Shown piece by piece: positions 4,771 to 60,695 of a DNA stretch of 64,000 bases. Positions within the stretch are counted from its first letter, which is position 1, and every line of letters begins with the position of its first letter. Origin of the DNA: Pseudomonadota bacterium. Lineage in GTDB: Bacteria > Pseudomonadota > Gammaproteobacteria > Burkholderiales > Burkholderiaceae_B. Below the pieces are notes generated by a model that searched no databases, had not been told where the DNA came from, and saw nothing but the letters and a program-made list of their open reading frames with translations. The stretch is taken from NCBI GenBank assembly GCA_023425645.1, contig JAFACG010000024.1, positions 1 through 64,000 on the forward strand, written 5' to 3'. Position numbers and translations under genes: made by a program.

Positions 4771-6008
4771 TGGCCGCCCTCCTGCGCGCCAGCCTCGCCG
4801 CTCGGCCCCGCAAGCGCCGGCGCCGCCTGCTGCATGGGTACGATGCGGGGCGCGACGGTCATGCCGGGACGGACCAGGCCCTTGATGATGATCTTCTCGC
4901 CGGCCTGCAAGCCGCCATGAACGACGCGCAAGCCATCCACCACCGGGCCGGGTTCTATCGGCCGGTACTGGGCCTGGCTGTCCGGACCGACGACCAGCAC
5001 ATAGCTGCGTCCCTGGTCGGCGCCCACGGCCTGGTCGTCGATGAGGATGGTCTGGCGCGCGGCGCCGGTGGACAGTCTGACGCGGGCGAACAGACCCGGC
5101 GCCAGTTGGCCATCGGGGTTCGGCACGACGGCGCGCGCGCGTATCGTGCCCGTGCTGCGATCGATCCTGTTGCCCACGAAGTCGAGCACTCCCTTGTAGG
5201 GGAAGCCCTTGTCGGTGGCCAGGCCTACCTCGACGGGCATCGCCGGCGCGTTTGCCTTGGCATCAGGCCGGGCCCCTCTCACGGCGGCAAGATAGGTGGC
5301 CTCGTCGATGTCGAAATAGACGTGCAAGGGATCGATCGACACGATCGTGGTCAGCAGCGTGGCAGCGCCTGCAGCGCCGCCGCTGACCAGACTCCCCTCG
5401 GTCACCAGCACCCGGTCCACGCGTCCGGAGATCGGCGCGGTGATGCGTGCATAGGAGAGGTCGAGCCGTGCCGCAGCAACAGCCGCCTGGGCCGACTGCA
5501 CCTGCGCCTGCCGCGCCCTGCGCGCGGAGACGGCATCGTCATAGGCTTTGCGCGAGACCGCGCCGGTGGCCACCAGCCGCTCGGCACGATCGAGATCAGC
5601 CTGGGCCTGGCTGGCCAGCACCTCGGCCTGGCGCAAGTTTGCCGTGGCGGTGTCCAGCGCGACCTGGAACGGACGCGGGTCGATCTGGAACAGCAACTGC
5701 CCTTTGCGCACGAGCCCGCCTTCGGGGACGCTGACCGCCTCGACGGCCCCGCCCACTCGTGAACGCAGTTCGACGGTCCTGGGAGCGGCAAGAAAGCCCG
5801 TGAATTCGATGGCGGGCGCGATGGAACGCGTGATGACCTCGGCCACGGGCACCTGCGGCGCCGCCGGCGCGCCTGCGGGCGCTTCCTTTGGGGGCGCCGC
5901 GGCCTTGCCTTCGTCCTTGACGGCGTCGCGGGCAGCGAACGCCGTCCCCCCGAGAGCCGCGATGATGCCCGCCGCCACAGCGATTCTGAATTTTTGACGC
6001 ATGAACAT
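4767..6008 (-). CDS. RND efflux periplasmic adaptor (membrane fusion protein)
   Basis: Periplasmic adaptor linking an RND pump to its outer-membrane factor. The 413-residue protein has an N-terminal signal-like segment (RQKFRIAVAAGIIAALG) without a lipobox, a proline/alanine-rich linker, then the biotinyl-lipoyl half-motifs (SRVGGAVEAVSVPEGGLVRK and AGLDLSYARITAPISGRVDR-like), a helical hairpin and a beta-barrel. Two in-frame ATGs, 6008 and 6002, are possible. It is first in the minus-strand operon and divergent from the MerR regulator. The length and N-terminus suggest the multidrug (HAE1) class rather than the heavy-metal CusB class. Confidence 0.9.
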   Translation of the reverse strand: MFMRQKFRIAVAAGIIAALGGTAFAARDAVKDEGKAAAPPKEAPAGAPAAPQVPVAEVITRSIAPAIEFTGFLAAPRTVELRSRVGGAVEAVSVPEGGLVRKGQLLFQIDPRPFQVALDTATANLRQAEVLASQAQADLDRAERLVATGAVSRKAYDDAVSARRARQAQVQSAQAAVAAARLDLSYARITAPISGRVDRVLVTEGSLVSGGAAGAATLLTTIVSIDPLHVYFDIDEATYLAAVRGARPDAKANAPAMPVEVGLATDKGFPYKGVLDFVGNRIDRSTGTIRARAVVPNPDGQLAPGLFARVRLSTGAARQTILIDDQAVGADQGRSYVLVVGPDSQAQYRPIEPGPVVDGLRVVHGGLQAGEKIIIKGLVRPGMTVAPRIVPMQQAAPALAGPSGEAGAQEGGQ

Positions 6009-56239: not shown

Positions 56240-57016
56240 ATGAAACGTTTTGCCGCCCTCGCCCTGACCTGCGCCCTGGCCGCGCCTGCCTACGCCCAGA
56301 CGGTTGCCACAGTCAATGGCAAGGCCATCACCCAGAAAGACATGGACCAGTTCGTCGCCCTGCTGGTCGAGCAAGGCGCAAAGGATTCGCCCGAACTGCG
56401 CGAGCAGGTCAAGCAGGAGATGGTCAACCGCATGGCTGTCGTGCAAGCCGCTGAAAAAGCCGGCCTGGACAAGAAAGCCGACGTCCAGCAGGAAATCGAA
56501 CTGGCTCGCCAGGGCATCCTGGTGCGCGCCCTGATGGCCGACTACCTGAAGAAGAACCCCGTCTCCGAAGCCGACATCAGCAAGGAATACAACACCATCA
56601 AGGGCATGGAAGAAGGCAAGCAGGAATACAAGGTGCGCCACATCCTGGTCAAGGATGAAAAGGCCGCCAAGGATCTGCTGGCCCAGATCAAGTCCAAGAA
56701 GATCAGCTTCGCCGACGCCGCCAAGAAGAACTCCATCGACACCGGCAGCGGCCAGCAAGGCGGCGACCTGGGCTGGGCGCCCAGCTCCACCTACGTGCCC
56801 GAGTTCGCCCAGGCCGTTGAAAAGCTGAAGAAAGGCGAACTGGCCGCCGCTCCCGTGCAGTCCCAGTTCGGCTGGCACATCATCCAGGTGGAAGACGCCC
56901 GTCCCGTGACCTTCCCCGCCCTGAACGACGTCAAGCCTCAGTTGGAAGAAATGCTGCGTCAGCGCAAGCTGGCCGAGTACCAGCAGAAGATCCTGAAAGA
57001 CGCCGACATCAAATAA
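56240..57016 (+). CDS. Periplasmic parvulin-type peptidyl-prolyl isomerase
   Basis: Folding helper for periplasmic and outer-membrane proteins. A signal peptide (ALALTCALAAPAYA) is followed by a SurA-like helical N-domain and one parvulin domain (about 125-225: VRHILVKDEKAAKDLLAQIK, GSGQQGGDLGWAPSSTYVPE, PVQSQFGWHIIQVED). Length is 258. I chose the ATG at 56240 because TTAAGGA lies 5 bases upstream; an ATG at 56234 is closer to it. Strong terminator follows. Confidence 0.93.
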   Translation: MKRFAALALTCALAAPAYAQTVATVNGKAITQKDMDQFVALLVEQGAKDSPELREQVKQEMVNRMAVVQAAEKAGLDKKADVQQEIELARQGILVRALMADYLKKNPVSEADISKEYNTIKGMEEGKQEYKVRHILVKDEKAAKDLLAQIKSKKISFADAAKKNSIDTGSGQQGGDLGWAPSSTYVPEFAQAVEKLKKGELAAAPVQSQFGWHIIQVEDARPVTFPALNDVKPQLEEMLRQRKLAEYQQKILKDADIK

Positions 57017-57063
57017 GGCGTCCAGGCCCGGTTTTAAACGCCGGGCCAGAAAGGCACGATCGA

Positions 57064-57095
57064 ACCGGCGCCCCTCATCAAGGCGCCGGTTTTTT
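57064..57095 (+). terminator. Rho-independent terminator after ppiC
   Basis: ACCGGCGCC and GGCGCCGGT form a 9-bp stem with a 9-base loop followed by TTTTTT, 48 bases after the stop. Confidence 0.9.
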
Positions 57096-57147
57096 GTTCT
57101 TCGGACGGATTTACCGGAGGATGAATGAAGCGCGAATGAAGCCGCAG

Positions 57148-57468
57148 CTCGAAGGTGTTCGAGTCCCTTGCAGGCTGAGGACTTGCCGGTGCTGCGCACC
57201 GGTTCCCTGGTCGCCAGCCCTCGCCGGGCGCGTCGTTAACTCCGGCGGGTCGCTCGCCCCCCAGGCGAGCGACAAGCGCCGCCGTCAAACAGAACGACGC
57301 TTGCCTCCCGGCTCGGCTTGCCGCCGACAGTCACGCGAGCCGGGAGGCAAGCGGCCTGCTGTTCGAGCGCGACGCTTGTGGTTCGGAACGAACCACCGCG
57401 TGAGTTCAGGCCGCGCCCGGCCCGCGTGACTGGCAAGGGTACAGGCGCATAGCGCCTGCAAGCCGTCA
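57148..57468. repeat. Cluster of nested perfect inverted repeats, possible structured RNA or repeat element
   Basis: No gene fits here, but at least six separate perfect hairpins occur in 320 bases. (1) CTCGAA/TTCGAG, 57148-57163. (2) CCGGTGC/GCACCGG, 57186-57202, inside GGCTG/CAGCC. (3) GTCGCTCGCC/GGCGAGCGAC, 57249-57273, inside CGGCGG/CCGCCG and then GCGTCGTT/AACGACGC (57230-57300). (4) An 18-bp stem, 57298-57315 with 57336-57353. (5) GTGGTTCG/CGAACCAC, 57378-57396, inside GCGGCCTG/CAGGCCGC (57351-57414). (6) CAGGCGC/GCGCCTG, 57442-57458. The loop of stem 4 also complements 57423-57437. It lies between a terminator and ligA. I could not match it to tmRNA, RNase P RNA or SRP RNA. Confidence 0.75.
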
Positions 57469-57597
57469 GCCGAGGCGGTTCTGGGGCCAGGCCTGAGCGG
57501 CGGCTTCCTAAATACTCCATTTAATCCCCAACGGTTAGCGAAAAAACTACTTTGGGGTCTATGACTAGTCTGTAAGAATCAGCGCGCCAAACCGCCG
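57469..57597. other. Spacer between the hairpin cluster and the ligA stop
   Basis: About 130 bases without a gene. CCCCAA and TTGGGG (around 57526-57556) can pair across an A-rich loop, and on the minus strand a T run follows the CCCCAAAG segment, so this may end the ligA transcript. Sequence from 57510 on is AT-richer than the hairpin block. Confidence 0.35.

Positions 57598-60695
<3,098 letters not shown>

Follow-up and report, generated by a model that had tools for sequence, protein, structure and literature searches.

Positions 57096-57547 of the window, the whole 64,000-nucleotide stretch of DNA that was analysed, probably represent a decayed, gene-less MITE-like transposable element of Alcaligenaceae. 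The element is built from a structured unit that is absent from all libraries searched, and the dispersal of this unit family is well supported. We propose that an enzyme encoded elsewhere would cut at the inverted ends and insert the element into terminator tracts, and that the window copy may have landed in the T-run of the ppiC terminator. A later deletion would have removed the 3' half of each unit and joined what remained, giving the dense nested hairpins, and the window copy is presumably now inactive.

The ppiC-ligA locus

The hairpins lie between two convergent genes, one encoding a PPIC-type isomerase (+ strand, ending at 57016) and the other, ligA, an NAD-dependent DNA ligase (- strand, ending at 57598). 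A sequence-only reading had drawn attention to this block and bounded it at 57148..57468, limits which proved too narrow, since the element spans about 57096-57547. It had counted six perfect hairpins, five of which could be placed; the sixth could not be identified. One is the mismatch-free 18-bp stem 57298-57315/57336-57353, found exactly as it had described and forming the core of a 50-nt inverted repeat (57266-57315/57336-57385, 82%); the others lie at 57186-57202, 57249-57273, 57379-57395 and 57442-57458. As a whole, 57173-57471 is an imperfect palindrome with 69% identity to its own reverse complement. The suspicion that the stems exceed chance was borne out by RNA folding of 57120-57520, which gave z-scores of -7.0 (+) and -8.8 (-), with 0 of 100 shuffles equally stable on either strand; folding of 57096-57547 with DNA parameters gave -7.7 (+) and -8.2 (-).

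The repeated 8-mer and the recurrence of CGCGTGA that had been pointed out were also present, with CGACGCTTG at 57295 and 57370 and CCGCGTGA at 57396 and 57422. Both GACGCTTG and CGCGTGA recur since the element carries the same unit twice, in facing orientation. In agreement with the view that the block holds no gene, the three ORFs that overlap the hairpin region (84-111 aa) had no Pfam match. Nor did the block match a known RNA family, and the sequence-only reading had likewise been able to place it in none: Rfam 15 gave 0 window matches at the gathering threshold and, by E-value, just miRNA models and one sRNA model below threshold. In a consensus scan, neither the window region nor the G007 element L306 showed a promoter-like site, and a scan allowing loops of 3-8 nt found no terminator-like site in the window hairpin region. 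The ppiC terminator was missed by the latter because its loop is 9 nt.

A dispersed family of structured units

By isomerase protein, the nearest named relatives are Alcaligenes (84-87%), whose ppiC-ligA gaps contain no match to the window element. In a blastn search with 57120-57600, three Alcaligenes genomes gave 36, 36 and 15 matches, corresponding to about 24, 24 and 10 places when merged by hand (one place may give two matches). The same search covered six relatives in all; Parapusillimonas yielded a single weak match and the two remaining genomes nothing. A later model search found 5, 2 and 8 units, respectively, in Parapusillimonas and the two blastn-negative relatives. Across the family-level group, at least 60 of 151 genomes carried unit matches, in a scan that used strict filters and scored 18 candidates per genome, so that its counts are floors. 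An order-level draw outside the family group yielded matches in 0 of 249 genomes, with E values up to 1e-4 accepted and 11 candidates scored in each genome. Eight of 28 chosen named genomes had matches, including Candidimonas, Eoetvoesiella, Neopusillimonas and strain CGII-64, and there were none among these 28 in Paenalcaligenes, Oligella, Thiomonas or Hydrogenophaga. Plasmid and phage collections gave no match to the window or to a G007 element, and a literature search yielded no description that we recognised as this unit family.

Covariation and strand preference of the unit

Fifty Alcaligenes stretches were fetched, six of which showed no unit in a motif scan; 50 units from the rest were aligned together with the two window units, and a covariance model, R1, was built from 49 units. 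The unit is palindromic and ~170-230 nt long. In orientation 1, it consists of a variable outer stem (P1), a side hairpin (P2), a long variable arm (P3/P4/P5) and an apical hairpin (P6), with near-constant unpaired joints between the stems (CCCTTG, GAACTC, AAGCG, TCAAACA and GCTTGCA). Relatives scoring at ~100 bits have similar joints and the same part order.

Among 39 units from 31 chosen sources, both sides had changed in 47 of 52 pairs. Paired cells made up 96.2% of 1,944, compared with 61.4% in shuffled alignments and at most 43.3% when partners were slid, and cells with two-sided changes numbered 646 versus 186 in shuffles. The number of pair types did not go beyond shuffles (126 vs 121; reached in 79 of 500). 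Although the alignment had been fitted to the model and cell counts are not independent, owing to the shared descent of the copies, the effect lies far beyond both controls. Given that the stems co-vary while the unpaired joints stay constant, we infer that the folded unit matters for the element.

Mismatches within the stems were unevenly distributed between the strands. With one column omitted, strand 1 showed 51 A.C (equivalent to G.U on strand 2) versus 8 G.U in 49 Alcaligenes units, and 29 versus 12 in 27 other units. Thirty-seven G007 units gave raw counts of 77 A.C versus 52 G.U, 36 of the latter coming from one fixed column, and 54 versus 15 after removal of three columns. If the fold acts on a single strand, tolerated G.U pairs are expected there; the A.C excess on strand 1 then favours strand 2 and suggests that it is this one strand, CTGTTTGAGC..GAGTTC, that may fold. 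Since wobbles are rare overall, the counts are also compatible with upkeep of the palindrome at the DNA level.

We also compared 21 unit pairs with similar upstream flanks (82-97% alike) across three Alcaligenes genomes, which showed 89 two-sided and 40 one-sided pair changes. In four of these, 10, 18, 16 and 15 stem pairs had changed on both sides, with one or two one-sided changes each and with flanks alike. Such joint replacement of stem pairs looks like whole-arm exchange between copies.

Architecture of the window element

Model R1 matches the window twice, on opposite strands, and the window element is thus made up of two facing units with a common centre. Its parts are as follows.

57063..57095, + strand: ppiC intrinsic terminator, the putative insertion site (10-bp perfect stem 57063-57072/57082-57091; T6 at 57090-57095)
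57096..57114, + strand: element left end, degenerate inverted repeat GTTCTTCGGACGGATTTAC (aligns with G007 left ends; alone not significant)
57138..57150, + strand: outer stem, left arm (pairs with 57495-57507, 92%)
57176..57341, + strand: unit A, orientation 1, its 3' part entering the shared centre (model R1, 104.3 bits, E 6.5e-21)
57186..57202, + strand: unit A side hairpin P2
57237..57291, + strand: unit A apical arm (TAACTC joint, P5, P6 hairpin, AAGCG joint, P5', TCAAACA joint)
57298..57353, no strand assigned: central 18-bp hairpin, from the GCTTGCCTCCC tracts of both units at the fusion point
57310..57468, - strand: unit B, orientation 1 on this strand (model R1, 128.8 bits, E 2.5e-26)
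57360..57407, - strand: unit B apical arm (TGTTCGAGC ... P6 57379-57395 ... GAGTTC)
57442..57458, - strand: unit B side hairpin P2
57495..57507, - strand: outer stem, right arm
57523..57547, + strand: element right end, degenerate inverted repeat AATCCCCAACGGTTAGCGAAAAAAC (profile score 21.7 bits)

The element is 452 bp long (57096-57547) and opens with GTTCTTCGG directly 3' of the T-run of the ppiC terminator (57096). A right-end profile made from seven G007 copies placed 57523 best of the 127,954 window positions on both strands, with 21.7 bits versus 16.9 for the next; at this runner-up, 40796, no element was visible by eye. The window left end alone was not significant, as three other places in the window scored higher and one equally, and no duplicated flank was visible around the window element.

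The order of parts is the same as in the G007 elements. Relative to these, the window element lacks the spacer as well as the 3' half of each unit. The GCTTGCCTCCC and GGGAGGCAAGC tracts pair as its 18-bp central stem, and its nested hairpins would have arisen because the units fused after loss of those halves. By eye, the unit A apical arm differs from that of the G007 unit L308 in 4 of 55 letters; the outer letters of unit B (GAACTC..TCGAACA) are common to partner units of the first of two G007 element types described below, and its apical hairpin is closer to the second.

Element ends and flanks in related genomes

Among the seven genomes searched, G007 was closest to the window, with flanks 89% and 82% alike and 105 matches. 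Its ppiC-ligA gap holds a remnant only, one arm of which is complementary to the window's left arm over 26 of 28 letters (by eye), and the insertion is therefore probably older than the split between the window and G007. Of twenty G007 stretches fetched, 16 contained a unit pair in convergent arrangement and one a pair in tandem, while three had a single unit.

The first element type is ~730 bp long and comprises L298 and seven copies aligned to it, 79-92% alike over 727-761 nt. Inverted ends, GGTTCTTCGA../..TCGAAGAACC or close variants, are common to these eight copies. In the G007 genome, the end motif (at most two mismatches) occurred 24 times in forward and 24 times in reverse orientation and 0 times in a backwards control; by eye, nine facing pairs had spacings of 472-734 bp, and there was none at 0.8-10 kb. 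Seven of the eight copies start at a run of at least four T or A, and a terminator-like hairpin adjoins at least four of these seven, i.e., L298, L301, L305 and L306 (both by eye). The automatic left-end call was wrong for L305 and L306, and their left ends were read separately. In L299, L301 and L303, the same AT-rich letters, e.g., ATAAAAA, stand on both sides (by eye), the other flanks being homopolymer runs. The eighth copy, L310, sits not in a T/A-run but among repeats (CGGTTCATCCCCGCTTACGCGGGGAACAC) which resemble a CRISPR array.

A second G007 element type (L291-L297, seven copies) has the ends TCAGGCTGCTGACAAACCC, and its body is a convergent unit pair in 7/7. By eye, a terminator hairpin of ~20 nt is repeated on both sides in five of the seven (L291, L293, L295, L296 and L297).

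The sequence-only reading had suggested a composite, palindromic and mobile element, and this receives backing from the copies in relatives, the covariation of paired sites, and the inverted ends and repeated flanks in G007. What it had named as refuting, a single copy with unconserved pairing, does not apply: there are copies in related genomes, and two-sided changes are seen at 47 of the 52 pairs.

In strain CGII-64 (G129), 36 copies of a longer composite were aligned from 40 stretches and were near identical, which points to recent spread. These composites (L218-L257) also carry variable tandem arrays at both ends, ~38 bp on the left and ~20 bp on the right, which include the end motif itself, and their spacer reads like the tail of an ORF. 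The unit is faced at L004, L228 and further G129 loci by a simpler hairpin, CTGTYTGAGCGCAGCGAGTTC, with the same joint motif and a minimal apical stem; this companion may also occur in other Betaproteobacteria. The ppiC-ligA gap of CAII-53 (L011, about 5780-5950) contains several hairpins on GGGGTCAGACCC, a different repeat in the same place.

Across 33 diverse loci, the left-end motif was found at 21 and the right-end motif at two. The left-end motif reads nearly alike backwards, and the complement and the other strand were used as controls for it, giving 0 and 0 compared with 21/33. No clear ends were seen around the Alcaligenes units. An empty-site test at two loci gave no direct proof of movement. 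The L117/L263 site is without the unit in G137, as compared with G001 and G118, and was considered as an empty target; however, a perfect 14-bp outer-stem hairpin remains there, and since part of the outer stem is retained, this was rejected and the site was read as a deletion through the stem.

Nine genomes were searched for ISL3-type transposases, members of a group with GG-TCTTCG-like ends and 8-bp AT-rich duplications. Five matches covered the whole model, all in G118; two of these five copies were examined and lacked the element ends, one of them also lacking a clear inverted end pair. Of the weak matches in other genomes, the two that were looked at, L319 and L324, are ORFs which by eye do not resemble a transposase. 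An ISL3 parent is not supported by the copies and ORFs examined. Neither the ISL3 genes of the nine genomes nor the end-motif pairs of G007 revealed an autonomous parent sharing these ends.

Placement relative to genes

The upstream ORF had the same sense as the unit for 44 of 52 Alcaligenes units (seven opposite, one absent), while the downstream ORF was of the same sense for 22, opposite for 27 and not found for three; these counts rest on a crude choice of ORF, and orthologous loci were counted more than once. For the 33 of 35 diverse loci that were used, upstream ORFs were same-sense in 24 and opposite in nine, and downstream ORFs same-sense in ten and opposite in 23. The upstream ORFs of 37 G129 units were same-sense in 28, opposite in seven and absent in two. 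In many Alcaligenes loci (uncounted), a terminator of the upstream gene can be made out by eye ahead of the unit. The two units were convergent in 8/8 Alcaligenes loci with two accepted units.

Discussion

We consider a decayed MITE-like element the probable explanation of the window region and weighed it against several others. The unit might primarily be a structured non-coding RNA made from strand 2, i.e., a multicopy gene for which the mobile element is only a carrier. The excess of A.C over G.U on strand 1 in all three sets of units agrees with this, as do the broad covariation and, by eye, one strand-2 joint that can form tandem G.A and U.U/U.G pairs. Strand-2 wobbles nevertheless occupy about 2-4% of cells, which is few for an RNA; neither L306 nor the window region showed a promoter-like site in the consensus scan, and there is no Rfam family; the units travel as facing pairs inside elements with common ends, and the copies are related by descent, so that cell counts are not independent. 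We regard this reading as rather unlikely. A somewhat better, though still minority, case can be made that the matched stem changes reflect repair at the DNA level (palindrome template switching or gene conversion between copies) and not selection on the fold. The four of 21 orthologous pairs with many simultaneous stem changes and flanks of unchanged likeness speak for such repair; against it, the joints remain near constant at fixed places across far deeper divergence, and mismatches favour one strand.

The units might also be retained behind genes because they delimit transcription, as backup terminators or insulators, whether or not their origin was mobile. This agrees with the same-sense bias of upstream ORFs in the Alcaligenes, diverse and G129 sets (44/52, 24/33 and 28/37) and with the 21 unit pairs that have similar upstream flanks in three Alcaligenes genomes. 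Insertion of facing units into terminator tracts would produce an equal bias, however, and many units lie past an already existing terminator (by eye), while the scan of the window region showed no terminator-like site; we judge a boundary role unlikely. Least probable by a wide margin, in our estimation, is that these palindromes are of the REP/BIME type and that a Y1 (RAYT) transposase moves them in folded single-stranded form. High copy number, palindromy, location at gene ends and frequent facing dimers are shared with REPs as described in PMC3733652, but REPs are 20-40 bp long with a GTAG or CGTC tag, compared with ~170-230 nt here. Furthermore, no Y1 transposase was found in G001-G003 or G007, and Y1 genes occurred in 12 of 60 genomes with units and in 20 of 91 without them (Fisher p 0.84). 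REP/RAYT identity was accordingly rejected, the unit being too long and Y1 not associated with it.

Beyond the MITE-like element itself, we offer, as a doubtful suggestion, that the unit may be a new mobile structured nucleic acid, with a branched fold, fixed joints, freely changing stems and one acting strand (RNA or single-stranded DNA); copies would swap entire arms, and different transposable elements with different ends would have taken the unit up as their body. The two G007 element types, with different ends and the same unit, raise the question of why this is so. With their many copies and matched stem changes, the units offer a natural experiment on how a fold is kept up, be it by selection on a strand, palindrome repair or copy-to-copy exchange. 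The hairpin-rich DNA behind Alcaligenaceae genes may be explained in part by elements lying in terminator tracts, and with a unit model annotators could label intergenic stretches that are now blank.

Among known systems, the pneumococcal BOX, RUP and SPRITE sequences are reportedly small interspersed repeats, SPRITE being terminator-like. They belong to another lineage, and the likeness is one of description only. ISL3-type elements resemble the present ones in their GG-TCTTCG-like ends and AT-rich target; they differ in that no ISL3 gene carrying the element's ends was found, the two G118 copies examined lacking them. The GTAG/CGTC REPs are likewise palindromic, with many copies and facing dimers, and no dedicated transposase is known for the CGTC type (PMC3733652); however, each unit here has several joints and a side hairpin, whereas a REP has an end tag. 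There is also a likeness to bacterial MITEs which, according to PMC10969869, are short, gene-less, foldable elements with inverted ends, direct-repeat flanks (7-9 bp for QMITE2 of Coxiella) and many intergenic copies. The present elements are short and without a transposase gene, have many dispersed copies and possess terminal inverted repeats, of which the window retains a right end and a weak left end. They differ from MITEs, which are typically AT-rich, in being GC-rich and in being assembled from a single branched, co-varying unit present twice in facing orientation.
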